Shown piece after piece: positions 12,000 through 58,634 of a stretch of 64,000 nucleotides of DNA. Origin of the DNA: Magnolia sinica (Eukaryota > Streptophyta > Magnoliopsida > Magnoliales > Magnoliaceae); contig NC_080573.1 of assembly GCF_029962835.1 (NCBI RefSeq), positions 39,425,001 through 39,489,000 of the forward strand, written 5' to 3'. Position numbers and translations under genes: made by a program. Position 1 is the first letter of the stretch, and every line of letters begins with the position of its first letter. The notes beneath the pieces were generated by a model. It saw nothing but the letters and a program-made list of their open reading frames with translations. It made no database searches and was not told the DNA's origin.

Positions 12000-13987
12000 T
12001 GTAGCATCCCGAATTTTCGTGGCCCAAGTATATACCCGTGCCCGAGAATTTTGAGTGTTGATAATATAAAAATTGGATGCTTCAAAATCACACTTTGTTT
12101 TTTTTTTTTTTTTAATTATTTATTTTTATAGATAAATCACATCCAGTTACATTTACAAAGGTAACTATTCATGATTTATTATTCCATTCGAATAAAAAAC
12201 GTACAAATAATTCTTTAATGTCTTCTCAATGGGAGCTTATTACATTATCAAAGGTTGTAGCGGAAAATAAATAAAACAATTCTTAGTGTTATCTTTTTTC
12301 TTTTCTTTTTTTCTTTTCGAAAGAATCTTCCATAGAATGATTATCGGCCGTATCATTAACCTGTAATTCACCTACAATATCATATGGTTGGAGATGGTCA
12401 ATGCCCTACTCATAGTGATGGTTATCCTTTAAGATTAACAATAATTCAAGAGATTCATAAGAATAATGTGAGGGTTCTGATACGTCTCATACTCCACCAC
12501 CACGAGTGGTATCAGTATGTGCAAGCAATCTACATGAATGGATGCCTAGCATAGTGTGTGTGGTCCATCATATGTAGTGGTTATCACAATGTGGAATATA
12601 GCTCATAGAAAACCTAGCTCACCCTGCATCCCATACTACGGACATTCGTCGGCGTGTTCAAATTTAAGTTACGATTGACGGTGTAATGTGGGTCAATTGG
12701 AAAGTCTAGCTTTAGGAAGAGTTGGTAAGCCTAAAACGGATAACTTTGCGGCTAAGTAAAAGCCTACCAAGGTGGGGTTGTCATATTTAACACTTGGTCT
12801 ATATGATGGAAAATTCAAGTCGTTCATACGAAGAGAAATATCATACTACGACTACCTATGACCTTTCTTCATTTGATGGATACCAAAATCAATGGTTAAG
12901 GGGTTGATTTGTCAATTGGGCCACTTTCACAATGATCTAAAGGCTGAAATTCAATGTGTATGGTTAATTTATGATAAATAGGCATGGTATAAAATTTTAC
13001 ATGAAACGGATCATGAAAACTATGTGATCTAGAATTCAAGGGTATAAGTTAATGACATTAAGTATTTACGATTTTGTCATCTTTTATTTCTGTGTCTTCC
13101 ACCGTCTGTAATGTCAGACTACACCATCCAAATGCATTGAAATTTGACAGACATTTTTTATTTTTCATTCTCTTTCTATCGCCCTATTTTGGGCCTTTAT
13201 CGCTTATAGATGACCAAGATGCCTTTTTAATGGGCTATACCGTTTTGAGGTCTAAATTAATGCTTTTATATATCTAATGAAGAATTCAGCCGGTAGTTGT
13301 GGTATATACCTTACGATCTTCGAACTGAGTAATTCATTCTGATATTTAGGCGGCCCATTTGGCGAATCCAAATATGATGAACGGTTAGATGATATGTTAA
13401 AAATAGAAAAACTTGATTATTAGTACTTTGATCATATATGTAGGTGGTTGTACGGTCGGTTTTGTAAATGGATGAATAGAAGTAGGCTTTTTGAGTGATC
13501 AAGTGGTAGAAAATGTATATCGTTACATTCGAGTGACTTGTTCACAAAAGTTCCTCAAATTGTAGTTCTAATGGTAGGTTAAACATATTCATAGGTGGTG
13601 ATCAAGATGAACGGATTAACATCTTGATTCGATACGTGTACGAATGGATGTAGAGATCAGGTAGTTAGTTTACCATAATTGGGTGGTCCAAAATCAAAGT
13701 GGACGGTCATAAATCTTTACCTAGTGGTGAATAGTTGATTGAACGGTTAGTTATGATGAACAAGTGAGAATACTTGGATATATAATGATCTTGTCTTAAA
13801 AATCAACGGTCGGGTGACTTGATCTATGGATGAAGATTATTCCCAACGGTCAAATTCAGGTTAGAGAATAGACGTAAGGTTAGGATATGCTAAATTGGTG
13901 ACATACACATGTACATACTAAATTAAATTTCATGAGAACACTTGATAATTTTCAATATTGCAATTTTGAGAAATATTGTAATGATCA
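12000..13987 (-). repeat. 5' LTR of the chromovirus-type remnant, with empty solo-LTR site
   Basis: In plus orientation it begins TGTAGCATCCCGAATTTTCG. It parallels the split LTR at 4,083-10,560 throughout and carries one AGTGG at 12,505-12,509 where the partner carries the 4.47-kb solo LTR. Its right end is degenerate and abuts a CACTA-like terminus, so the outer target duplication of the element cannot be read. Confidence 0.85.
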
Positions 13988-14030
13988 CACTACAAGAAAG
14001 AGGGTTTTTAGCGACGAAAAACACCCCAGT
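13988..14030 (+). mobile_element. CACTA-type transposon end fragment
   Basis: CACTACAAGAAAGAGGG followed by GTTTTTAGCGACGAAAA. The CACTACAAGAAA start is the hallmark terminal sequence of plant CACTA (En/Spm) elements, and short repeated words behind it are usual. Only about 43 bp remain before copia sequence begins. No partner end of this type was found nearby. Confidence 0.6.
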
Positions 14031-16259
14031 AAAATGGAATTGCTGAATGGAAGAATAGAGTGTTCTAAGAAATGGAAAGAGTAACGCTAAATGGTATGAA
14101 AGCGCCTAAATATATATGGGATGAAGCTGTGAATATTGCTTGCTATCTAATTAATTGTGTTTATATTAAAGGTGGAAAAAATAAAATAGTATATGAAATG
14201 TAGTTTAAGAAAAAGCGTAGTGTAAAATAATTTTGTACTTTCAGAAGCAAGTGTTACATTTTATGTGACTGTGAAAATTTGAAAAATTTTGATATAAAAA
14301 GTGATTAAGGAATATTCTTAGGATATGCGTTAAATAGTCGTGCATATCATGTTCAAAACAAAAGAATTAGGGTAATTCAAGAAACGATAATGTTGTAATT
14401 AATGATCATTCGATCAATCCCAAATTTCACCAAGATAATGGTGATAGTGATATCACTCTGATTACTCAAATCAACCACCATCCAAAACAAATACTATTGA
14501 TTTAAGTTTGGTAAAAGACCATCCAACCAATCAAATTTTTGGTCTCCTCTTTCTATTGTTCAGACCAGAAGGTAATTGGAAAATATTTGCAATCATGTAT
14601 GCTTTACTTCAAAAATTGATTCGGCAAACATAAATGAAGCACTGTTTGATGAAAGTTGGATTTTGGCAATGAAGGATGAACTGAATCAAATTGTAAGAAA
14701 TGATGTGTGGTATCTTATTCCTATATCATCTGATAAACATGTTAATGGAACTAATTGAATTTTTAAAAATAAATCAGATGAACTTGGAAATATTATCAGA
14801 AACAAGGCACGACTGGTTGTGCAAGGTTAAACTCAAATAGAAGGTATTAATTATGATGAAACCTTTGCACATGTTGCTCACCTTGAATCTATCAGACTAT
14901 TTATTTTTGTTCTTTATTATAAAATTTTTAAAACATATCAAGTGGATGTTAAGAGTGCATTTCTCAACGGTGACTTGAATGGGGAAGTATATGTTAAACG
15001 ACCTAAGTGTTTTGAAGATCTTAAATTTACCGATCATGTGTTTTATCTTAAGAAAGCCTTGTATGGTTTGAAACAAGCCCACGAGCATGGTATGAAAAGT
15101 TAACTAAATTTTTACTTAGCTATAACTTTCGGATGGAGAGAATTAATAAAACTCTGTTTGTTAAACAATCCAATGATGATATTTTGATTGTTCAAATATA
15201 TGTTGATGATATTATTAATGGATCTATATGTGCTAATCTATAATTTAAGTTTACAGAACTTATGAAGTCTGAATTGGAAATAAATATGGTTATAAAGCTA
15301 ACATATTTTCTTGGACTTCAAGTTAAGCAGCTCGAAGATGGAATTTTTATCACCCAAACCAAGTATGCACATAATTTAGTTAAAACATTTGGATTTGAAA
15401 GTGGTAGAAATTTCAATATTCCTATGAGTACAACACTCAGATTATTCAAGCATGAATCAGGTAAAAGTGTTGATTTTTGTCTTTATCAAAGCATGATTGG
15501 TAGCTTGCTTTATTTAACTACCAGTAGACCAGATGTATCATTTAGCGTTGGTATTTGTGTAAGATATCAATCTGATCCTAAAGAATCTCATCTGTCGGTT
15601 GTTAAACATATAATTAGATATATTGCAAGCACTACTAATCTTGGTTTATAGTATCCGCAGATACATCTATTCAAATAGCAGGATATACTTATGCAGGTCG
15701 GGCAAGAAACACTGATGACAAAAAATCTACTAGTGGTGGATGTTTCTACATTAAAAATTGTCTCATCTCTTGGATAAACAAAAAGAAAAACTCAGTATCC
15801 TTATATACTACAGAAGCGGAATATATTGCTACAAGAAATTCTTTTACTCCGCTAATGTGGATAAACCAAATGCTGGCTGATTATGACATAATTCAAGATA
15901 CAATGAATTTGTATTATGATAATGCTGGTCTAATTAATATATCTAAAAATCCTATCCAACACTATCGTACAAAACATATTGACATCAAATATCATTATAT
16001 ACGAGAGTTAGTTGAAGAAAAGACAATTATGCTGGAATACATTCAAAATGAAAAGCAGTTTACAAATATTCTAACTAATCCACTCGACAGTGTTAAAATT
16101 TAAATTTTAGGCAGAATATTGGCTTGTGTTTTGTATAATTATCTTCTTAAAACTAATATATTTTTTTCTTTATCTTTATTTTAGATTTTAAAAGAAAAAA
16201 AATAAAGAATTTTTTTTTTTTTTTAAACTTCCATTGTTTATCCAAGAGCCGGTAACAAA

Positions 16260-20829: not shown

Positions 20830-21285
20830 ATGGCTTCAAAAACTTGCTTCTTCTTATCTGTGCTCATTTTTGTGTCACTAGGCTACCACACATGCCTTGC
20901 AGCCCGCCACTTGTTGGACACTCCCGAGCTGTCAGCCCCACCACCAGTGCCGACTATCCCAACCCTGCCGAAACCCACATTGCCAACGTTGCCTCCTTTG
21001 CCTGCGGTGCCGACTCTACCTCAGCCAACGTTACCACCATTGCTTAGTGCCCAATTACCGCCTTTGCCAGTCATGCCTACACTCCCAAAAGCAACATTGC
21101 CACCATTGCCTGCTACCCAATTGCCGCCTCTGCCTGTCATGCCGAGTCTGCCGAAGCCTACATTGCCGCCATTGCCTTCCATCACTTCTATTCCAACAAT
21201 CCCAACCATTCCCTCCATCCCAACTATCCCTTCAATACCAACCTTCCCTACAATCCCTTCCTTCTCTCCACCCCCTTCAAACTAG
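20830..21285 (+). CDS. Secreted proline-rich protein, PELPK1-like, copy 1
   Basis: A 151-residue, single-exon protein. Residues 1-24 form a signal peptide (hydrophobic core FFLSVLIFVSLGY, likely cleavage after TCLA), followed by a short ARHLLDTPE linker. The rest is Pro/Leu-rich: PTLPKPTLPTLPPLP and QLPPLPVMPTLPK blocks at about 40-115, then a PTIPSIPTIPSIP tract, ending SPPPSN. Family knowledge: PELPK1-like and related proline-rich proteins are exported to the cell wall, where they probably act structurally, and have been linked to defence and growth. There is no enzymatic domain. The ATG context is ACCATTCATGGCT, and the signal peptide fixes the start. It is the upstream member of a three-gene tandem family and its frame is intact. 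The family name rests on composition and the leader sequence, without a search. Confidence 0.88.
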   Translation: MASKTCFFLSVLIFVSLGYHTCLAARHLLDTPELSAPPPVPTIPTLPKPTLPTLPPLPAVPTLPQPTLPPLLSAQLPPLPVMPTLPKATLPPLPATQLPPLPVMPSLPKPTLPPLPSITSIPTIPTIPSIPTIPSIPTFPTIPSFSPPPSN

Positions 21286-30013: not shown

Positions 30014-30551
30014 GGAAATCGGAATGCGTACTGAGTTACTCAATACGCTCTTATCGTACTGAGTAAACTCAGTTGGCCCACCTTGAATGTATGTGGTCTA
30101 TCCACGCCGTCCATCCGTTTTTCCATCTAATTTAAGGGGTTGATCCAAAAATTGAAGCATATTCAAGGATCAAGTGGATCATATCACTGGAAACAGTGGG
30201 GATAATGATTTCCACCGTTGAAACCTTTCTATGCCCCATATTTATGTTTACTTGTCATCCAACCTGTTCATAAGATCATACGGATATGGATGAAGGGAAA
30301 ACACAAATATAAACTTGATCTAAAACTTATGTGGACCCCAAGAATTTTTCAATGGTAGATGTTCAATTTAACTGTTTCATGTAATGTGGTCCATTTGAAC
30401 ATTAGATATCTCTGATTTTTGGGCTCAAGCCCTAAAATTATCTGGTAAAATGGATGGACTGAGCAGATAAAATACATAAATCATGGTGGACCTCACGGAG
30501 TTTACTCTATATGCTAAGCGTAGTGGGTTACTCACTACGCAATCCGCTTCC
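30014..30551. mobile_element. MULE-type MITE (538 bp)
   Basis: TIRs of about 38 bp: left GGAAATCGGAATGCGTACTG...; right, inverted, GGAAGCGGATTGCGTAGTG.... The 9-bp flanks are TTCTGTGCG (30,005-30,013) and TTGTGTGCG (30,552-30,560), one mismatch apart. Long TIRs with a 9-bp duplication are the Mutator signature. The body carries the GGCCCACCTTGAATGTATG / CCGTCCATCC phrases that recur across the window. A truncated relative lies at about 46,670-47,100. Confidence 0.85.
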
Positions 30552-39878: not shown

Positions 39879-40304
39879 ATGGCTTCAAAAACTTACTTAT
39901 TTTTATGTGTGCTCATTTGTGTGTCACTGGGCCACCACACATGCCTTGCAGTGCGCCACTTGTTGGACACTCCTGAGCCGTCAGCCCCTCCACCAGTGCC
40001 GACCATCCCGACCCTGCCGAAACCCACATTGCCAACGTTGCCTCCTTTGCCTGCGATGCCGACTCTACCAATGCCAACGTTACCACCATTGCCTAGTGCC
40101 CAATTGCCACCACTGCCGGTCGTGCCTACACTCCCAAAGGCGACATTGCCACCATTACCCACTACCCAATTACCACCTCTGACTGTCATGCCCAGTCTGC
40201 CGAAGCCTACATTGCCGCCATTCCAACAATCCCAACCATTCCCTCCATCCCAACCATCCCTACACTCCCTTCCCTCTCCCCACCTCCTTCAAACTAGGCC
40301 ATGA
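39879..40304 (+). CDS. Secreted proline-rich protein, PELPK1-like, copy 2 with altered C-terminus
   Basis: A 141-residue, single-exon paralogue of the proteins at 20,830 and 58,170. The signal peptide (MASKTYLFLCVLICVSLGHH, cleavage after TCLA) and the PTLPKPTLPTLPPLP / QLPPLPVVPTLPK blocks are kept to about residue 113. There, relative to copy 1, 19 bp are missing near 40,223. The downstream sequence is therefore read in another frame and the SIPTIP...SPPPSN tail is replaced by a Gln/Ser-rich one (FQQSQPFPPSQPSLHSLPSP) that stops a few bases past the old stop position. Promoter and poly(A) signal remain, so it may be expressed with a changed tail or be an early pseudogene. A sequencing error cannot be excluded from the sequence alone. 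Confidence 0.8.
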   Translation: MASKTYLFLCVLICVSLGHHTCLAVRHLLDTPEPSAPPPVPTIPTLPKPTLPTLPPLPAMPTLPMPTLPPLPSAQLPPLPVVPTLPKATLPPLPTTQLPPLTVMPSLPKPTLPPFQQSQPFPPSQPSLHSLPSPHLLQTRP

Positions 40305-45422: not shown

Positions 45423-45431
45423 TTTCCTTGC

Positions 45432-46275
45432 GAGAAATTTATGACTATGGACCCCACCTTTTATCCAATGGTTTTTACGAAGCAATACAAACTTAACATA
45501 TGCACTTAGACCTCCTCATATGGACACCAAATTTGAGGATGAAAATACCCCTGCCTTCCTCATGCTGGCGTGTAGAAATGAGCACTGATGGACAGTCCGA
45601 CGATGGGAACTCAGGTGGGGCCCACTGTGATGTTTGTGAGAAATCCTCCCCATCTAAGTTCATTCATAGGGTCACAAAGACCTGGATGAAGAGGAAAAAC
45701 AAATTTCATAATGATCGAAAACTTCTGTAACCCCTAAAAGGGTTTCAATGGTAGACGTTCAATTCCCCACTGCCTTTTACAATGTGGTCCACTAGATAGT
45801 TAGATCTATCTTATTTTTTGTCTTAAGCCTTAATATGAGCTCGCCAAATAGATGGACGGTTTGGATATAACACAGACCTCATGATGACCCATGAAAGCAA
45901 CCTAGCAAAAAAAAGCACAGATAGCAGCGGCACTACCGCCGGTTCGGCGGCAGTGTCGCGGCTATTTGGCAGCTTTTTTATTATTATTTATTATTTATTA
46001 TTTTTTATTTATTTTACAGAGAGAAATTTTTCTCTCTTACATTTTTCTCTAATACATAATTATGTAAATATGTATATATAAGTATATAAAAATATTTTTC
46101 TATCTTTTAATTCATTTCTTTGTCTATTTATTTAACAAGCATATCTCTTAAATTAGAATGTTTTTTTTCTTTTTTTCTTTTTACACACGCACTCACACTA
46201 GTGGAATTTCACCATGTATGGATACTCGAACGCTTGACCAGGTGTTAAAACTCCTAAGAGTCTACCACCCGAGCA
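45432..46275 (+). repeat. MULE terminal repeat R1 (left outer)
   Basis: It contains CACTGTGATGTTTGTGAGAAA, GTGGTCCACTAGATAGTTAG and TATGAGCTCGCCAAATAG, then TTTACAGAGAGAAATTTTTC, and ends in CTAAGAGTCTACCACCCGAG. R2, R3 and R4 share this order. Open frames in it (e.g. 45,500-45,730) recur in R4 only because the DNA is shared. Confidence 0.88.
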
Positions 46276-46359
46276 AGAGTAAGAATCCTAAACTAGAATG
46301 ATATACTTATAGGGAGTAAGGATCCTAAGAGTCTACCACCCGAACAAGAGTATGCATGA

Positions 46360-47440
46360 AAATGAGTGAGGCAAGCATGAAAATGAGCGGGGTAAGCATG
46401 AAAATAAGCGGGGCAAGCATGATATGGAAAATTGGATGGACCGCATGGACAAAACACATGTATTATAATGGGCCACAGAGCACCTCTAATGCGGTATTAA
46501 TGACACTACCGAATCTGAGTCTTGTTTTTTAAAGTTTCACGTCCAATGGTTTGAAAATTAGCAGGGCAAACATGAAATTGAGCGGGGAAAACTAGAAAAT
46601 GAGCGGGGCAAACTAGAAAATGAGCGGGGCAAACATGAAAATGAGCGGTGCAAACTTAATAAATAATTTCATGGCTTGAGCTGAAAAATCTAAACATATC
46701 CAATGTTCAAATGGACCACACCACATGAAATTTTGAATTGAACTTCTAATGTTGATCATTTCTTAGGGGCCATAGAAGTTTTGGATCAAGCTTATAATTG
46801 TGTTTTCTATTAATCCATGTCTGTATGATCTTATGAATAGGTTTGATTACAAACAAACATCATTGTTGGGCCGACTATGGTTTCAATGGTGGAAATCATT
46901 ATGCCCACTGTTTCCCATGGTATGATCCACTTGATCTTTTGATATGCTTCAATTTAGGGCTAAACCCCTTAAAATAGATGGAAAAACGGATGGATAACGT
47001 GGATATACTACATACATTCAATGTAGGCCCAACTGAGTTTACTTAGTACAATGGGAGCGTACTGACTAACTCAGTACCCAATCCGATTACACTTGCTACG
47101 CCCCACAATGATGTTTTATTTGTAATACATCATATTCATCAGATTATGTAAAACCCCTCCGTTTTCATCGGAATATGTATACACCAAAACCCTATATGTG
47201 GAATGGAACCTAGACATTAAGCGGGACAAACATGAAATTGAACGGAGCAAACATGAAATTCAGCAGGGGAAACATTAAATTCAGCAGGGAAAACAAGAAA
47301 TTGATCAGGGCAAACTTGATTTTCAGCGAGGGAAACATGAAATTTAGCAGGGCAAATCATGAAATTTAGCGAGGCAAACATGGAATTAAGCGGGGTAAAC
47401 TGAAAATTGAGCGGGGCAAACATGAAATTCAGCGGGTCTT
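46360..47440 (+). repeat. 21-bp minisatellite, outer type, interrupted by a MITE remnant
   Basis: Repeats of the form ATGAAAATGAGCGGGGCAAAC occur at about 46,360-46,660 and 47,217-47,440. This variant is the one beside R4 too, and differs from the alternating variant beside R2 and R3. Confidence 0.85.
46670..47100. mobile_element. Truncated relative of the 30,014 MULE-MITE
   Basis: The right end ATGGGAGCGTACTGACTAAC, then TCAGTACCCAATCCGATTACA, and the body phrases (ACTGTTTCCCATGGTATGATCC, AAAACGGATGGATAACGTGG) match the element at 30,014-30,551 in inverse orientation. The left TIR is missing. It lies inside the minisatellite. Confidence 0.7.
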
Positions 47441-47454
47441 ATGAAGTGAGTTTG

Positions 47455-47640
47455 GCGAAGTGTTGCTCCTTTTGGACTCATGTACTTAAAAATAACCAGG
47501 CTGCCTTCCTAGACTGCCTCTGGCGATGGAATTTGGTTAGTAGAGAAGGATAAGCTCTTTATACCAGATGACCTACAACTGAGAAAAATGTTAATGGAAG
47601 CTAGCGAAGATGGTATTCTATTTGTTTGGTACCCGCAGTC
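47455..47640 (+). pseudogene. Unidentified captured exon, copy 1
   Basis: Almost the same 190-bp sequence lies inverted at 54,700-54,890. The better copy reads FWTHVLENNEAALLNYLWRW and, in another frame, LFIPDDLQLMKMFMEASED, so it looks like decayed coding sequence. I do not recognise the gene. It sits just inside the minisatellite on both outer arms, making it part of the long terminal inverted repeat. Confidence 0.6.
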
Positions 47641-47783
47641 CAGCTTACAGACCATTTTAGGATGAAAACCACCTCAGGGCAGTAACGATGCCAACTACTC
47701 ATCTCTTGGTCTCGAGAAAGTGTGTAATTGAAGCGATAGAAATCATCAACTACCAAATGTTTCACATTCATCACCCCACCTTT

Positions 47784-47915
47784 GTAGCTTTCCTTCGCAC
47801 ACGGATAAAAGTGACTGCTAAATGATGAAGATTTAATGCATATCTTGGCTACCCAAATCGTCCAATGACCCAACAACAATGATAGAAGCCCAAAGAGCAT
47901 TAGCTCTGCTTGCAA
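47784..47915 (-). pseudogene. MLO-family gene fragment
   Basis: The minus strand encodes about 44 residues: AELMLFGLLSLLL, then VAKICIKSSSFSSHFYPCAK. This matches the second transmembrane segment and start of the first loop of plant MLO proteins (ELMLLGFISLLL...ISxIC(V/I)xSSxFxxxFxPC). A plausible 3' splice site (TTTTTGCAAGCAG) precedes it, so one exon start was copied. MLO proteins are seven-transmembrane plasma-membrane proteins involved in powdery-mildew susceptibility. The rest is absent and the open frame runs on into unrelated sequence. It is a captured fragment without function of its own as far as can be seen. Confidence 0.8.
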
Positions 47916-47940
47916 AAAGGAAGGAAGAAAAAAAAAACTC

Positions 47941-48560
47941 CCTCAATTAATGTCAGAATTAAAAAAGAAGAGTATTGTAGATCATACTCAAAATACAAGT
48001 CTACCCTGTATGTAGTGTATATGGACATAAATCCTGACCATCTAAATTGTGGGCCTCAGTTTAGATGGGAATTGCCCAAGATTGCACTTCTTAGATGGTC
48101 CCTCCATTCGATGGGGAGACACCAAATAGGTGGTTCTTATTTGTAAGAAAAGTAATGATCACATACAATCCATTGTTGCTTAACTTAAGATACAACTAAT
48201 CACATGTGCCAATATGTCACGTATAGGATATTTGAACCATGAAGAAATGTGACCCACCATGTAGGTCAGCTGCCACAAAAATCATCCCTACTCATTTATC
48301 AGGTGGGCCAAATGAGTACATGGAAGCACACTGTCAGCATCTCTGATTTAAACTCTCTATTTTTTTTCATGCACAATGGCTTGGTTTTTTCACCAAATGA
48401 TTCTTCAAGGTGAGTCCCTCCTTTAGCATGGTGCTCATGTCCTAGGCAGATGATAGGTTTACAGGTTAGATGGACTGTATTGTAAGCTATCCAACAACCG
48501 GTTATAGGAGATCATTACTCTCAAAGAAAAGATGTTCAAAGTTCCAAATTCATTACCAAA
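47941..48560. other. Non-coding interior of the MULE composite
   Basis: No recognisable gene. Some GGCCCACC-style repeat text occurs near 48,240-48,320. Confidence 0.45.
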
Positions 48561-48569
48561 ATCAGATAG

Positions 48570-48957
48570 TTTGCCCCGCTCATATTTCAGTTTGTCCAGC
48601 TATTTTTCTAGTTTACCCCGCTCATATTTCAGTTTTCCCCGCTATTTTTCTAGTTTGCCCCACTCATATTTCAGTTTGCCCCATTGTTTTGCTTGTTTGC
48701 CCCGCTGTTTTTCTAGTTTGCCCCGCAGTTTTTTTAGTTTGCCCCACTCATATTTCAGTTTGCCTTGCGGTTTTTCTAATTTGCCCCGCTCATATTTCAG
48801 TTTTCCCCGCTGTTTTTCTAATTTACTCCGCTCATATTTTAGTTTGCCCCGCTGTTTTTCTAGTTTGCCCCACTATTTTTCTTGTTTGCCCCGCTGTTTT
48901 TCTAGTTTGCCCCGCTCATATTTCAGTTTGCCCCGCTGTTTTTCTAGTTTGCCCCGA
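48570..48957 (-). repeat. 21-bp minisatellite, inner type (about 18 units), beside R2
   Basis: GTTTGCCCCGCTCATATTTCA alternates with GTTTGCCCCGCTGTTTTTCTA, giving a 42-bp higher-order period. It is the inverse of the array at 50,938-51,377. Long open frames over it (48,470-49,014) are repeat artefacts. Confidence 0.92.
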
Positions 48958-49917
48958 TCGGGTGGTAGACTATTAGGAGTTTCAACACCCGGTCAAGCGT
49001 TCGAGTATCCATAGGTGGTGAAATTCCACTAGTGTGAGTGTGTGTGTGTGTGTAAAAAAATAAAAAAATAAAAAAATCATTCTAGTTTAGGAGATATGCT
49101 TGTTAAATACATAGACAAAAAAAATGAATTAAAAGATAGGAAAATATTTTTATATACTTATATATACATATTTACATAATTATGTATTAGAGAAAAATGT
49201 AAGGGATAAAAAGTTCTCCCTGTAAAAAAAAATAATAAATAAATAAATAATAAAATAAAATCGGCAGTTTGTAGATTTTATTTTATTTTTTTATTTTTTT
49301 GCTATGTTGCTTTTGTGGGTCCCATCATGAGATCTGTGTTATATCCAAACCGTCCATCTATTTGACGAGCTCATATTAAGGCTTGAGACGAAAAATAAGA
49401 TAGATTTAACTATCAAGGCAGTGGGGAATTGAACGTCTACCATTGAAACCGATTTAGGGGTTACAGAAGTTTTGGATCATTATGAAATTTGTGTTTCCTC
49501 TTCATCTAGGTCTTTGTGACCCTATGAATGAACTTATACGGGGAGGATTTCTCACAAACATCACAGTGGGCTCCACCTGAGTTTCTAATGGTTGACGCTC
49601 ATTCAACACTATTTCCTGTAATGTGGTACACTTGAGATTTGGATATACCTCATTTTTGGTCTCATACCATAAAATGATCTGGAAGAATATATGGACAGCA
49701 TGGATGAAAATAATACATCATGGTGGGGCCCACAAACCACCGACGATCTGCCATTGGTCGGTGGTAGGAGTACCCGATCCGTTTCCTTGAAAAGGAGGGG
49801 TATTTTCATCCTGGAATTTGTCGTCCGTATGCGGAGGTCTAATTTCGTATGTTAAGTTTGTATTGCTTCAAGAAAATCCAATGGACAAAAGGTGGGGTCC
49901 ACAGTCGTAAATTTCTC
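48958..49917 (-). repeat. MULE terminal repeat R2 (inner, terminus pointing right)
   Basis: Inverse copy of R1, running from GGGTGGTAGACTATTAGGAG to the terminus ACAGTCGTAAATTTCTC at 49,917. Confidence 0.88.
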
Positions 49918-49953
49918 TTTTTTAATTCTACTAATTATCTTCCCAAAAAAATA
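49918..49953. other. 36-bp spacer between inward-facing MULE termini
   Basis: AT-rich and T-run to A-run in form. Its flanking 9-mers (TTTTTTAAT, AAAAAAATA) match neither each other nor the outer target duplications. Confidence 0.7.
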
Positions 49954-50940
49954 GAGAAAATTACAACTGTGGACCCCACCTTTTATCCATTGGATATTCT
50001 TGAAGCAATACAAACTTAATATATGCACTTAAACCTCCTCGTACGGACGACAAATTCCAGGACAAAAATACCCCTCCTTTTCAAGGAAACAGATTGGGTA
50101 CTCCTACCACCCGCCAATGGCGGATCGTCGGTGGTCCGTGGGCCCTACCATGATGTTTTCTTTTCATCCATGCCCTCCATATATTTTTCCAGATCATTTT
50201 ATGGTATGAGAGCAAAAATGAGGTATATCCAAATCTCAAGTGTACCACATTACAGAAACAGTGTTGAATGAGTGTCAACCATTAGAAACTCAGGTGGAGC
50301 CCACTGTGATGTTTGTGAGAAATCCTCCCCATCTAAGTTCATTCATAGGGTCACAAAGACCTGGATGAAGAGGAAAAACAAATTTCATAATGATCCAAAA
50401 CTTCTGTAAACCCTAAAAGGGTTTCAATGGTAGACGATCAATTCCCCTCTGCCTTTTACACTGTGGTCCACTTGATAGTTAGATCTATCTTATTTTTCAT
50501 CTCAAGCCTTAATATGAGCTCGCCAAATAGATGGACGGTATGGATATAACACAGACCTCATGATGGGACCCACAAAAGTAACATAGCAAAAAAATAAAAA
50601 TAAAAAAAAACACAGACTGCGCCGGTTCAGTGGCAGTGTCGTGGCAGTCTGGCAGATTTATTTATTTTTTTTTATAGGGAGAACTTTTTCTCCCTTACAT
50701 TTTTCTCTAATACATAATTATGTAAATATGTATATATAAGTATAAAAATATTTTCCTATCTTTTAATTCATTTCTTTGTCTACGTATTTAACAAGCATAT
50801 CTCCTAAACTAGAATGAATTTTTATTTTTTTTTTACACATGCAAACACACCCCCACACACTCACACTAGTGGAATTTCACCACCTACGGATACTCAAACG
50901 CTTGACCGGGTGTTGAAATTCCTAAGAGTCTACCACCCAA
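49954..50940 (+). repeat. MULE terminal repeat R3 (inner, terminus pointing left)
   Basis: It starts GAGAAAATTACAACTGTGG and follows R1 through to the GAGTCTACCACCCAAG end, then runs into the minisatellite. Confidence 0.88.
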
Positions 50941-51377
50941 GCGGGGCAAACTGAAAAATAGCCGGGCAAACTAGAAAAACAGCGGGACAAGCTGAAGTAT
51001 GAGCAAGACAAATTAGAAAAATAGCAGGGCCACTGAAATATGAGCGGGGCAAACTAGAAAAACAGTGGGGCAAACTGAAATATGAGCGGGGCAAACTTAA
51101 GTATGAGCGAGGCAAACTAGAAAAACAGCGGGGCAAACTTAAGTGTGAGTGGGGCAAACTAGAAAAATAGCATGACAAACTAAAATATGAGCGGGGCAAA
51201 CTAGAAAAACAGCGGGGCAAACTGCATTATGAGCGGGGCAAACTAGAAAAATAGCGGGGCAAACTAGAAAAACAGTGGGGCAAACTGAATTATGAACGGG
51301 GCAAACTAGAAAAACAGCGGGGCAAACTAGAAAAACAGTGGGGCAAACTAGAAAAACAGCAGGGCAAACTTAAGTAT
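50938..51377 (+). repeat. 21-bp minisatellite, inner type (about 21 units), beside R3
   Basis: CTAGAAAAACAGCGGGGCAAA alternates with CTGAAATATGAGCGGGGCAAA. It mirrors 48,570-48,957. Confidence 0.92.
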
Positions 51378-51927
51378 GAGTCTCAAGGAAATTCTCCTTT
51401 TTACAATTCAGGTAACGTTGTTACTTCCATGTTATGGAGTTATCTGATCAATGGTCATCATGTGGTGATCCAGACCCATTGATCTGATCCAGTCTACCAT
51501 GGATGTGAATTTCCTTGAAAATCTCCCTGATTGGATGATAACAACCATCCAAATATTTGTTCCAGTTTTTACACACGTGGTGAATTTCTGTGTTTTTTTC
51601 TCAGCCGTCTATTTGTGGGCCGCGTATTGATGACCTATTGCATTCTGATTGGAGAGGTTTTTGGATAATCTAGATTGATAATGTAGGCCCCATAGTATCA
51701 ATAGCAAAGATTGGTCGACCATGGGCTCAAATGTATGGACCATGGTACAATGCATGGATGAGATAATTCCTCCCGTCTTCTTGATACTAAAAAAAATAAA
51801 AAATATATAAAAAATAAAAAAAATAAGAAGAAGAAAAAACACTATGTGATCAATCAGCAATTGCAATAAGATTCTGATCTTTTTTTAAAAAAAAAAAACT
51901 AAAAATAAAATCTATTTATGTTTTCAG
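51378..51927. other. Interior of the MULE composite upstream of the BAHD exon
   Basis: It ends in TATTTATGTTTTCAG at 51,927, a good 3' splice site, so its last part may be the captured intron of the acyltransferase gene. No first exon was found. Confidence 0.5.
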
Positions 51928-52828
51928 GTCACAAGATTCAAGTGTGAAGGATTCTCAATTGGTTTGTGATCAACCACAGCATACTTGATGGGAAATCAGA
52001 GCCTGAGATGTTCCACAACCTAGCCTCCATTTGCAGGGGTGAAGGCCTCAAGACCCATGTTCTCAACAATGACAGGACATGTATCAAAGCAAGAATCCCT
52101 CCTCAGATCAAATACCCACACAAAGAATACACAAAGCTAACTGAAATAACTAACATTCCTTCCTCATTCACATCACCCAACCAACCTTCCCCACCCCAAT
52201 CCCTCTTAAAAGTATCACACAATCACAGCTACAAACTTTTCCACTTCACACCTGAAATGATCACCACCCTAAAAAACAAGGCCATGATCAAGTGCTCAAC
52301 TTTTGAGGCCATGGTGGCCCACCTGTGGAAATCAAGGACAAGGGCTATCTTTGAAGACCCATGTGGGGTTTCATTAGTACTCTTTGCTATGGACATTATG
52401 AGCAAGATAACTCCACCCTTGCCACATGGGTTTGTTGGGAATGCTGTTGTAACAGCTTGTGCAAGTGCAAAGGTGGTGGATTTGAATAAGGAGTCTTTAG
52501 GGTTTTGTGTTGACAAGTGAAGGAAGCAATAGAGATGGTGACAGATGAGTATGTGAAATCAGTAGTGGATTGGTTGGAGGTTTATAGAGGGGTCCCTTCC
52601 ACTTTAGATGGGAATTTTTATGAGTCAACTTGGTGGAAGCTGCCCTTCCATGAGCTAGATTTTGGGTATGAGAGGCCCACCTATGGTGGCCCAGTTGTGA
52701 GTGGAATGGATGAGTTTGTGTTATTGTTCTCTGATGGTACTGGGGTGAGGAGAGGTGGAGGTGTCAATGTATGGATGGCCATAGAACAAGAGATGGAGAA
52801 ATTCATGATGCATGTGTTTGAGATGTAG
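51928..52828 (+). pseudogene. BAHD acyltransferase, captured second exon
   Basis: Begins right after TTTTCAG at the classic BAHD intron position (VTRFKCEGFSIG). The catalytic HXXXD reads NHSILDG. Then come LASICRGEGL, RIPPQIKYPHKEY, TFEAMVAHLWKSRTRA and PPLPHGFVGNAV. After one frame change come WWKLPFHELDFGYERPTYGG (the DFGWG-motif region) and FVLLFSDG, with the stop at 52,828. BAHD enzymes move acyl groups from CoA thioesters to alcohols or amines. The wording is nearest the fatty-alcohol/hydroxy-acid (HHT/GLAUCE-like) clade, from memory. Exon 1 (about 130-150 residues) is missing. One base appears lost near 51,974 and one near 52,516. Both catalytic motifs survive as sequence, but this is a fragment inside the MULE composite. 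Confidence 0.9.
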
Positions 52829-53796
52829 TCCTTTCCTTATATATTAGATGTTGGTATACACGTGAAATAGGGTAATATCCTTATCATGTGTATGAGTTGT
52901 ACTGTGGTGAAAAGAGGACAAACTATAGTGTTTGACTATCAACTTTTTTGGTGTCCTTGTACAATGGTTTGATTACAGTGGTCCACATCTTTGCACAGAA
53001 TGCATAGTTTTTAATTTTCACAAGTGGGAGACATTTTTGGGTGATGCAGAACAATTCATTGGTCAGTTGACTTCCACTGAGGATGTATCATGGCACAAAT
53101 CGACATATATTCACTTTAAAAGAATAAAATTACAAGAGATAGAGATTACCCAATTCGAACAAGTCTTGAATCACCTAAGTTATAAGCTTGAAACCCTACA
53201 AACAAATTAGAAAGCTCTTGATACCCCCTATTCCCGATTACACCCATATATATGCATGGCATCTAGGTGAATCACAATCGAAATAGGAAATAAATCCTGC
53301 ACTTATGCAATTTTGTGTAACTTTGTATGATCGTTCGATGAAACATTCGATGACACTTCGATGGCATCGAACATCTTCGATGTTATCGAACTAACCAAAA
53401 TGTTCTAGCAACTAAACATGTATTTTTCAGATATACTTGATGGCACTTCGATGGGACTTTGATGTCATCGACGGTTCGTCGATGGCATCAAACCTCTTTT
53501 GATAGCTTTGAGCAGGACACCAAAAGTGTCCAGTAACAAAGCATGAGATTTTCGTATTTTTTCGATGGCATTGAATAACTGACAATGGCATTGAATAGCT
53601 CTTGATGGCATCAAATGGTCAGTCGATGGCATCGACAGACCCTATTGTTGAAAGATTTGAGACATCAACAACATATGTCGCCTTGTATCAGGCTTTTCAG
53701 GATGATATGGGATGATATGAGCCGTATGGTTGATGGATGACATTAGAAGACAATACTTTAAAGCTTAAACTCATTTTTTAGTTTAGAAGAATGGGC
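52829..53796. other. Sequence downstream of the BAHD exon, with TCGATGGCATCGA-type repeats
   Basis: 52,829-53,220 may be captured 3' flank. Between 53,330 and 53,640 the near-palindrome TTCGATGGCATCGA and variants (CGATGTTATCGA, TGATGTCATCGA, CGATGGCATTGA) occur about a dozen times at irregular spacing. No gene recognised. Confidence 0.55.
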
Positions 53797-54400
53797 CTAG
53801 TTTAGAAAAACAGTGGGGCAAGCTTAAGTATGAGCGGGGCAAACTAGAAAAACAGCGGGGCAAATTGAAATATGAGTGAGGCAAATTAGAAAAACAGCGA
53901 AGCAAACTGAAATATGAGCAGGGCAAACTAGAAAAACAGCGGGGCAAACTGAAATATGAGCGAGACAAACTAGAAAAACAGCGGGGCAAACTGTATTATG
54001 AGCGGGGCAAACTAGAAAAACAGCGAGACAAACTGAAATATGAGATGGGCAAACTAGAAAAACAGCGGGGCAAACTTAATTATGAGCGGGGCAAACTGCA
54101 TTATGAGCGAAGCAAACTAAAAAAACAGCGGGACTAACTGAAATATGAGCGGGGCAAACTAGAAAAACAGCGGGGTAAACTGAAAATGAGCGGGGCAAAC
54201 TAGAAAAACAGCAGAGCAAACTGAAGTATGAGTGGAGCAAACTAGAAAAACAGTGGGGCAAACTGAAATATGAGCGGGGCAAACTAGAAAATCAACGGGG
54301 GAAACATGAAATTGAGCAGGGCAAACTAGGAATTCAGTGGTGAAAACATGAAAATGAGCGGGCCAAACTAGAAATGCAGCAGGGCAAACTAGAAATTAGA
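53797..54400 (+). repeat. 21-bp minisatellite, transitional array (about 28 units)
   Basis: Starts with the inner-type alternation (CTAGAAAAACAGCGGGGCAAA / CTGAAATATGAGCGGGGCAAA) and changes near 54,280 to the outer type (CATGAAATTGAGC, CATGAAAATGAGC). Confidence 0.9.
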
Positions 54401-54699
54401 AAAGTATGTTATACCCAAAGTAGAAAGTTGATTTCATCATCCACTAAGATTACAAAGTATGTTATATATCAAAATAGTAAATTAAATTACAAAGTATGCT
54501 ATTTTTCAGATATAGGAAACTTGCACTTCCCATTTGAACGTCGATATTATCAGCCCTTTTGCAATCAACCCATCCATCGGTTCAACCCTCCCAAGGTTAT
54601 AATGATTAGAAAAAGAACTCAGACTGAAATGCACAGACTTGAAAATTTGTTGCACTCTAAGATTATAGTAAAGCTCTTACAATTTACTTGAATCAATGG
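54401..54699. other. Interior of the composite, unexplained
   Basis: AT-rich, with three copies of a TACAAAGTATG(T/C)TAT-like word at 54,400-54,500. No gene recognised. Confidence 0.4.
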
Positions 54700-54890
54700 T
54701 CTGAAACCTGGACTGTGGATACCAAACAAATAGAATACCATCTTCGCTAGCTTCCATAAACATTTTCATTAGTTGTAGGTCATCTGGTATAAAGAGCTTA
54801 TCCTTCTCTACTAACCAAATTCCATCGCCAGAGGTAGTTTAGGAGGGCAGCCTCGTTATTTTCAAGTACATGAGTCCAAAAGGAGCAACA
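54700..54890 (-). pseudogene. Unidentified captured exon, copy 2 (inverted)
   Basis: Inverse of 47,455-47,640. The minus strand reads WTHVLENNEAALLNYLWRWN and, in a second frame, LFIPDDLQLMKMFMEASED then ILFVWYPQSRFQTID. The two frames may be two joined exons or one frame change. The source gene is not recognised. Confidence 0.6.
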
Positions 54891-54960
54891 CTTCATGCTT
54901 GCCCCGCTCATTTTCATGTTTGCCCCCCTCATTTTCATGCTTGCCCCCCTCATTTTCAAA
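54891..54960 (-). repeat. 21-bp minisatellite, outer type, short array
   Basis: Three to four units of GCCCCGCTCATTTTCATGTTT / GCCCCCCTCATTTTCATGCTT, the inverse of the array beside R1. Confidence 0.85.
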
Positions 54961-55587
54961 GAGCCTGAAACTGGTATGGATTCCTTCATTGCAGTTCGAA
55001 TGCTACAAATCGTTCATGTCATTAGCTGGCGTTTGAACTACACAAACCTAACTTGGAAAGGCTAGTTATGTGCAAACCTTAGCATTTGGTTGAATATTTA
55101 GTTGTGGGCACTTTCCAAATTCAGTGGGTGTTTGGAAGGACCTTGAGAAAGAAACCCAACTAAGAAGCTTTTTGTTACCTGAGGTTACACCTCAAATAAT
55201 AACTCTCATTGTTCTAATTGTTTTAACCAATTATAGAATCCATTAAAATAGCAACTTCTGGAAATTCAACTTAAGGGCCAAATGCAGGGCTGAGAATACA
55301 TGAATAAAGCTTCCATGGAACTTCCATTCTATAAACATATCTGAAAATATATTTGAGACTATATCATATAAGCCTTTTTAATATGTATGGTGATCTATTT
55401 AGCCTTTTAAGCATGATAGGCTATCCTTAGGTAACTGTTGCATTAGCTATATACTCTGTACTAATATTTCTCTTTATGGTAGTGTAATAGTGCTAGAGGA
55501 ACTACTTATGGATCTTGAAAAATAACTAGGTTGGTTGGCTAAATTAGCTTCTCCTACCCCAAAATCATATGTGGTACGTTAAGTAAA
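54961..55587. other. Interior of the composite between array and R4
   Basis: No counterpart beside R1. Probably an insertion or leftover flank. No gene recognised. Confidence 0.45.
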
Positions 55588-56265
55588 TCATTCTAGTTTA
55601 GGAGATATGCTTGTTAAATAAATAGGCAAAGAAATGAATTAAAAGATAGAAAAATATTTTTATATACTTATATATACATATTTACATAATTATGTATTAG
55701 AGAAAAATGTAAGGGAGAAAAAGTTCTCCCTATAAAATGCTGCCATTTTCGACACACCGTGTTAGACTGCAGCAAGCTTGTTTTTTTTACTACATTGCTT
55801 TTGTGGGTCCCATCATGAGGTCTGTGTTATATCCAAACCGTCCATCTATTTGGCGAGCTCATATTAAGGCTTGAGATGAAAAATAAGATAGATCTAACTA
55901 TCAAGTGGACCACACTGTAAAAGGCAGTGGGGAATTGAACGTCTACCATTGAAACCCTTTTAGGGGTTACAGAAGTTTTGGATCATTATGAAATTTGTTT
56001 TTCCTCTTCATCCAGGTCTTTGTGACCCTATGAAAGAACTTAGACGGGGAGGATTTCTCACAAACATCACAGTGGGCCCCACCTGAGTTCCCATCATCGG
56101 ACCGTCCGTCAGCGCTCGTCTCTGCACGCCAGCCAGAGGAAGGCAGGGGTATTTTCGTCCTCAAATTCGGTGTCCGTACGAGGAGGTCCAAGTGCGTATG
56201 TTAAGTTTGTATTGCTTCATAAAAACCACTGGATAAAAGGTGGGGCCCACAGTCGTAAATTTCCC
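55588..56265 (-). repeat. MULE terminal repeat R4 (right outer)
   Basis: Inverse of R1 from CATTCTAGTTTAGGAG to the terminus CAGTCGTAAATTTCCC at 56,265. It lacks the distal CTACCACCCGAG part present in R1-R3. Confidence 0.88.
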
Positions 56266-56274
56266 TTTCCCTGC

Positions 56275-58169: not shown

Positions 58170-58634
58170 ATGGCTTCAAAAACTTGCTTCTTCTTATGTC
58201 TACTCATTTTCGTGTCACTGGGCTACCACACATGCCTTGCAGCCCGCCACTTGTTGGACACTCCGGTGCCGGCTGCTCCACCGCCAGTGCCAACTATTCC
58301 GACCCTACCGAAACCCACATTACCAACATTGCCTCCAATGCCTGCAGTGCCAACTCTACCTAAGCCAACATTACCACCATTGCCTAGTGCCCAATTGCCA
58401 CCATTGCCCGTTGTGCCAACACTCCCAAAGGTAACATTGCCACCATTGCCATCTACCCAATTGCCGCCTGTGCCTGTCATGCCGAGTTTACCAAAGCCTA
58501 CATTGCCGCCCCTGCCGACCATGCCTACCATCCCCTCCATTCCAACAATCCCAACCCTTCCCTCCAGCCCAACCATCCCTTCAATCCCAACCATTCCTAC
58601 CATCCCTTCCCTCTCTCCACCCCCTTCAAACTAG
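58170..58634 (+). CDS. Secreted proline-rich protein, PELPK1-like, copy 3
   Basis: A 154-residue, single-exon protein with an intact frame. The signal peptide (MASKTCFFLCLLIFVSLGYH, cleavage after TCLA) is followed by ARHLLDTPVPAAPPP. Then come PTLPKPTLPTLPPMP, QLPPLPVVPTLPKVTLPPLP and QLPPVPVMPSLPKPTLPPLP blocks, and a TIPSIPTIPTLPSSPTIPSIP tail ending SPPPSN. Copies 1 and 3 agree closely in leader and tail, so this is the family's standard form. It is probably a cell-wall protein like its paralogues. The leader and poly(A) signal match the other copies, suggesting shared expression. No catalytic domain. Confidence 0.88.
   Translation: MASKTCFFLCLLIFVSLGYHTCLAARHLLDTPVPAAPPPVPTIPTLPKPTLPTLPPMPAVPTLPKPTLPPLPSAQLPPLPVVPTLPKVTLPPLPSTQLPPVPVMPSLPKPTLPPLPTMPTIPSIPTIPTLPSSPTIPSIPTIPTIPSLSPPPSN

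Follow-up and report, generated by a model that had tools for sequence, protein, structure and literature searches.

Two Mutator-like elements of Magnolia sinica in a tail-to-tail pair that may have moved as a macrotransposon

The locus described here lies in a 64,000-nucleotide stretch of the Magnolia sinica genome (NCBI RefSeq assembly GCF_029962835.1; contig NC_080573.1, hereafter C1, positions 39,425,001 to 39,489,000 of the forward strand), referred to as the window and taken from a genome of 1.84 Gb. At positions 45432-56265, the window holds a 10.8-kb unit composed of two complete elements, A and B, of one Mutator-like element (MULE) family, placed in opposite orientation, tail to tail, with a gap of 36 bp (Table 1). 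Singly, A and B look ordinary; it is the pair that is unusual. The outer ends of the unit are inverted, reading GAGAAATTTATGAC from 45432 and, inward, GGGAAATTTACGAC from 56265, and the outer arms (45434-45886 and 55811-56263) are 94% complementary over 453 bp. The flanking 9-mers, TTTCCTTGC and TTTCCCTGC, are repeated in direct and not in inverted orientation and agree at 8/9 positions. A match this good was equalled by 53 of 200,000 random 9-mer pairs drawn from the window, and by 54 of 50,000 pairs under a looser control that admitted no more than one mismatch at any length from 8 to 11. The inverted ends, the extent of the unit and the near-duplicated flanks, as given in an initial annotation of the locus, are thereby borne out. 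The evidence suggests that the pair jumped together as one 10.8-kb unit.

The four ends of the two elements, R1 (from 45432 on), R2 (in reverse from 49917), R3 (from 49954 on), and R4 (in reverse from 56265), align as versions of one terminus, and the tips of R2 and R3 face one another inside the unit. An extra segment of about 150 bp is common to R2 and R3, whereas R1 and R4 are without it. Informative alignment columns favor the grouping of R1 with R4 and of R2 with R3 (28 columns, against 4 and 2 for the alternative pairings). A tree built from 52 termini, of which 36 are type I, 12 are type II, and four come from the window, splits the type II ends together with R2 and R3 from the type I ends together with R1 and R4 at a support of 1.000; the positions of R1-R4 inside their own types are weakly supported. 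Element A runs from type I to type II and B from type II to type I, so both outer ends of the unit are type I. The inverted arms around the spacer extend for about 1.4 kb and are 83% alike.

The initial annotation had read the locus as one element bounded by inverted arms. On such a reading, R2 and R3 would be duplicated internal copies of the element's own ends, as in a MULE with multiple terminal inverted repeats (TIRs). Tomato indeed has MULEs in which extra ends occur internally and inner duplications are lacking (PMC3310237). In the Magnolia unit, however, R2 and R3 are type II ends and not copies of R1 or R4; they face each other mid-unit and belong to complete elements. Each half also follows the plan of an ordinary member with one end of each type, and the interior pieces match either the family member at locus L032 or those at L036, L039, and L040. 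Moreover, the spacer occurs between family ends once in the genome at up to 3 mismatches, with no second place of that kind, and by that test the pair did not multiply. A single-element origin is therefore highly improbable. An inverted duplication of one element was also considered and is disfavored because the interiors differ (a BAHD fragment in B, an Mlo fragment in A) and the outer flanks are direct. R1 and R4 also stand apart within type I in the tree, with weak support there.

The interiors of A and B carry pieces of host genes. Where at least three such genes had been proposed, two are recognized by Pfam, the BAHD transferase family (PF02458) in B and the Mlo family (PF03094) in A, and no third was found among the frames scanned; eight other frames gave no Pfam match at E up to 1. 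Residues 11-55 of the Mlo frame match profile positions 53-96, the two BAHD frames reach E values of 6.5e-22 and 1.9e-12, and the best solved chain for the BAHD fragment is 6dd2_A. No transposase was seen among the frames scanned, to which the search was confined. The unit thus has the makeup of a Pack-MULE, with two host-gene fragments and no transposase in those frames. The BAHD piece recurs at eight places including the window, where 900 or 901 of 901 bp are matched at 92-100% (40 scored of 98 first-pass candidates), and this recurrence indicates that the capture most likely predates the unit. Most of the piece is also present in L032 on contig C4, a single element with the plan of B that carries it at 93-94% with the middle (about 217 bp) missing. 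Contrary to the initial annotation, the exons were thus most likely not captured by this unit. Interior pieces of A are common to L036, L039, and L040.

The BAHD piece is also carried by L013 and L016 (C1:120589357 and C1:120599839), two family elements that closely resemble each other, point the same way, and are separated by 10.5 kb; the last 22 or so bases of their left flanks are common, and beyond these the flanks differ. In another member, L047, a 157-codon frame on the minus strand at about 5.7-6.2 kb looks by eye like a captured plant gene piece. The internal repeat segment of A, with its counterpart at window positions 30017-30441, is also an interior piece of several members and is distantly like the middle of the terminal arm.

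Table 1. Features of the paired unit; positions refer to the window unless a contig is named.
Feature	Position	Strand	Basis or relation
Unit including flanking 9-mers	C1:39470423-39481274		
Left 9-bp target-site duplication assigned to the whole unit, TTTCCTTGC	45423-45431	.	8/9 to 56266-56274
Right 9-bp target-site duplication assigned to the whole unit, TTTCCCTGC	56266-56274	.	8/9 to left copy
Element A, complete member, type I to type II	45432-49917	+	Four-end alignment, A versus B comparison, tree, interior pieces
Element B, complete member, type II left, type I right	49954-56265	-	A versus B comparison, four-end alignment, tree, plan of L032
R1, type I terminal arm of A	45432-46275	+	Arm complementarity, four-end alignment, genome matches, tree
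R2, type II terminal arm of A; includes the ~150-bp extra segment	~48960-49917	-	Four-end alignment, site patterns, tree
R3, type II terminal arm of B	49954-~50940	+	Four-end alignment, site patterns, tree, tip pattern
R4, type I terminal arm of B	55582-56265	-	Four-end alignment, site patterns, tree
36-bp spacer between A and B	49918-49953	.	One other genome place, C8:7035878-7035913 (-)
21-bp tandem arrays in A near R1	46354-46422, 46553-46655	+	
21-bp tandem array in A	47216-47436	+	
21-bp tandem array in A beside R2	48567-48956	-	
21-bp tandem array in B beside R3	50940-51370	+	
21-bp tandem array in B	53815-54396	+	
21-bp tandem array in B	54892-54958	-	
Internal repeat segment in A	46663-47088	.	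82% to window 30017-30441
Internal segment of A	47457-47656	+	Inverted copy in B at 54695-54894, 94%
Internal segment of B	54695-54894	-	Inverted copy of A 47457-47656
Open frame with captured Mlo-family fragment, in A	47604-47942	-	PF03094, E 2.2e-10
Captured BAHD acyltransferase fragment, in B, two frames meeting near 52517	51948-52825	+	PF02458

The family to which A and B belong is widespread. The terminal 28 bases, searched as an exact pattern, occur 499 times in the genome (reversed control, 0). A genome search with the first 471 bp of R1 gave 6,117 first-pass candidates, 40 of which were scored; 39 of these 40 long matches start at bases 1-3 and one at base 21, two of them being the window's own. 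Among them, no copy has a terminus elsewhere, and the position of the end thus passes a check that the initial annotation had itself proposed. Around part of these matches, 18 stretches of 10 kb and one of 3.3 kb were sampled. Both ends are in view in 13 complete members, each of which pairs a type I end with a type II end, in a sample that was chosen by the type I end and in which elements with two type II ends were unable to appear. The partner end is out of view in five stretches (L031, L038, L045, L046, and L049), and L035 and L042 appear to be a single locus in inverted copies, which leaves 12 independent members.

The family has the hallmarks of Mutator-like elements, namely 9-bp duplications and terminal inverted arms of about 0.7-1 kb, well over 100 bp. 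Flanks match at 7/9 or better in 10/13 members (four at 9/9, three at 8/9, and three at 7/9), although those of L040, at 8/9, are T- and A-rich. The match is poor in L036 (5/9 at an end corrected by eye), L047, whose first 20 type I bases have no match, and L048. Together with the captured gene pieces, the long inverted ends and the duplications agree with the Mutator-like assignment first given to the locus. Arrays of 21 bp lie inside the ends of all 13 complete members, so arms with minisatellites are a trait of the family and not a mark of this locus. These arrays begin inside arms of unique sequence, and the arms themselves are not made of tandem repeats, as those of foldback elements are. 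In the unit, the terminal repeats lead directly into arrays at R1, R2, and R3, as the annotation had it, but not at R4, where about 620 bp of other sequence precede a small array.

Close neighbors of the same family occur elsewhere. At C1:101975402/101975789, two ends face each other at a distance of about 360 bp. Pairs of consensus tips that face each other across gaps of 1-31 bp are found at one place, C11:18434084, which matches on both strands and consists of a type I-like end at 82% and a divergent end. At gaps of 32-62 bp, there are none in the genome by an exact pattern that misses mutated tips, including the window's own pair, in which the tip of R3 differs. At L035, a large element lies 2-3 bp from a small relative of 1.5 kb and has kept its own 8/9 duplication. 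Both ends of this relative are alike and carry the extra type II segment, so like ends do occur among relatives. L035 (C15:4908120-4918119) and L042/L043 (C15:4755698-4769000) are mirror-image copies about 145 kb apart, and in each a large family element lies 2-3 bp from a 1.5-kb element with the type II segment at both ends. Additionally, at C2:2990097-2990292 two terminal 28-mers in the same direction lie 168 bp apart, as in a tandem-TIR MULE.

The spacer is the strongest piece of evidence for movement as a pair. It occurs at two places in 1.84 Gb at up to 3 mismatches, the window and contig C8 (reversed control, 0), and the C8 copy is identical except for one A in a run of A. The C8 copy is not in contact with any family end, and over the 3,036 bp of C8 that were compared, nothing matches the unit's outer flanks. 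If A and B had once occupied such a site and departed from it together, one would expect just this, a spacer in common with C8 but no common outer flanks. When 440 bp surrounding the C8 copy were used as query, 43 matches were reported (40 of 722 candidates scored). Over the first 273 bases of this query, spacer included, no other match was found, in a non-exhaustive first pass that also missed the window's 36 bp; the remainder is a repeat starting about 37 bp past the spacer. Just past the spacer-like site on C8 (locus L051), the sequence GGAAAATTACGGTACTCC looks like the tip of another MULE-like element, with no matching far end in that locus.

The flanks point in the same direction. Element A alone has flanks that agree at 4/9 positions and element B alone at 0/9, against 8/9 for the pair. 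With ends shifted by up to 3 and lengths of 8-11, the best result is 3 mismatches in 8 for A and 6 in 11 for B. A duplication thus surrounds the outer ends of the pair and none surrounds A or B singly, the pattern of composite transposition. The 1-kb flanks of the unit have no copy spanning an empty site inside the window. Two independent insertions at the C1 site at different times, with a chance match of the outer flanks, would also place two elements side by side. In a family with 499 exact ends, members do land beside relatives (L035/L042 and the facing ends on C1), and 3/13 single members are without a clear duplication. Yet chance yields an 8/9 match in 53 of 200,000 pairs, and neither A nor B has a duplication of its own, in contrast to the large element at L035, whose own duplication is what independent insertion predicts. 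Such insertions would also make the spacer C1 sequence, yet it is common to C8 and the outer flanks are not. Separate arrival of the two elements at the C1 site is accordingly unlikely.

The locus is best explained, at a probability of about 0.62, as a macrotransposon, in which two non-autonomous Mutator-like (Pack-MULE) elements of one family moved as a pair. A, which runs from its type I to its type II end, and B, which runs the opposite way, would first have landed at a C8-like site whose sequence may survive on contig C8, with 36 bp left between their facing type II ends. A transposase supplied in trans would then have paired the two outer type I ends, and A, spacer, and B would have moved to the present C1 site with duplication of a 9-bp target (TTTCCYTGC). 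Under this donor model, the own duplications of A and B at the C8 site are expected to be TTTTTTAAT and AAAAAAATA. We infer the order of these events, the part of the transposase, C8 as the source, and transposition rather than repair. The proposal of one mobilized non-autonomous unit is supported as to mobilization by the outer duplication and by the spacer shared with another contig, with templated repair as a less likely alternative, but the unit is two elements and not one.

Several observations weigh against movement as a pair from the C8 site. The outer duplication has one mismatch in nine positions. A good duplication is missing from 3 of the 13 single members as well (L036, L047, and L048), and the lack of one around A and B therefore carries no more than moderate weight. 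The searches described revealed no occupied donor site. Another family end, of type II, lies 1,271 bp from the C8 site and is 86.5% identical to B's end over 230 bp, so the C8 region is not free of the family. On the B side, likeness to C8 runs on past the spacer, and the BLAST match extends 11 bases into B's tip, to 49964. C8 continues CGTAGGAAAATTAC where B starts GAGAAAATTAC, with the MULE-like letters GGAAAATTAC a few bases on. The tip of B differs from the family form GAGAAATTTAC by an A at base 7, which increases its likeness to C8. This base occurs in 0/48 family tips in the set, and the exact pattern is found at one place in the genome, here, versus 499 for the usual tip. The entry of the C8 match into B's tip and the uniqueness of that base weaken the macrotransposon reading and strengthen one based on repair.

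Break repair in plants copies short fillers. A break between two element ends could have been filled with 36 bp copied from C8, which would make the spacer filler DNA; the spacer then need not mark the site where A and B first met. The short length of the spacer fits such an event, as do the MULE-like letters GGAAAATTAC on C8 just past it, which B's tip resembles where it differs from the family. Repair that took over a base from C8 would account for this tip, but so would one chance mutation beside a MULE-like C8 stretch, and the single changed base may be due to chance. On the A side, the tip keeps the usual family sequence and the likeness to C8 sets in exactly beyond it, which does not favor copying, and templated repair by itself leaves the outer 8/9 duplication unexplained. 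Templated repair is thus a possible but doubtful origin of the spacer.

Other features of the window lie outside the unit. Three small proline-rich protein frames, secreted-looking by eye, are spaced about 18-19 kb apart at 20830-21285, 39879-40304, and 58170-58634. They sit in aligned blocks of about 1.5 kb with 76-80% identity and form a tandem gene array. Positions 716-2853 and 13950-16093 are inverted copies at 73%, with frames that look by eye like Ty1/copia reverse transcriptase.

Each part of the unit is of a known kind. A limited literature search found no macrotransposon made of MULEs, and no maize Mu end sequence was found in print in the literature search. Ac/Ds elements, which form macrotransposons in maize, belong to the hAT family. 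In those macrotransposons, as two reports describe them, the outer ends of neighbors are used together, everything between them moves, and the target is duplicated, as proposed here; unlike the Magnolia unit, with outer ends of the same type, they have 8-bp duplications, and the structure reported is bounded by Ac 5' and 3' ends (PMC9910405, PMC3260210). MULEs with multiple TIRs occur in tomato, Arabidopsis, rice, and maize, with extra ends that are mostly tandem and near the termini (PMC3310237). The Magnolia unit shares with these their extra inner ends and outer-only duplication, and they too are mostly non-autonomous, some with gene fragments, but here two complete elements stand tail to tail around a spacer that is also found elsewhere in the genome. 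Pack-MULEs likewise have long ends, 9-bp duplications, and captured host-gene pieces, here Mlo and BAHD; A and B singly would be ordinary among them, whereas the paired arrangement is unusual.

The mix of Mutator and foldback traits, which the initial annotation took as new, is already in print for the families MuTAnT (PMC4486113) and Tm1 (PMC3169594), the latter named a Mutator/Foldback family in its title. Both reports use the terms Mutator-like, foldback, and tandem repeat. Set beside them by description only, the Magnolia arms differ in being unique sequence of 0.7-1 kb with the arrays inside. Mu killer of maize, a derivative of Mutator, resembles the Magnolia unit in that its two outer ends both stem from one and the same element end and an inverted duplication lies inside (PMC3440606). 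In contrast, its repeats are part of a transposase gene and it silences MuDR, whereas here the halves differ inside and no transposase was seen. Hairpin RNA has been proposed as the basis of silencing by Mu killer, and short antisense transcripts are also argued for in the same source (PMC3440606).

If the macrotransposon reading is true, the locus would be a sequence-level trace of composite movement by Mutator-like elements, with a likely source of the spacer that can be named, and would show jumping genes moving as composites. It would also set a natural exception, with type I ends on both outer sides, against the 13 complete members sampled, all with one end of each type, a contrast that touches on the requirements of a MULE transposase at either end. 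As a tentative and rather improbable extension, argued by analogy, two type I ends may form a competent pair, with the type II end dispensable for the transposase, and the composite (arms of about 1.4 kb at 83% with a loop of about 36 bp) may also be a source of hairpin RNA that acts in trans to silence the family, the mode suggested for Mu killer. Should transcripts be made from the inverted pair, it could be a counterpart of that maize element in nature.

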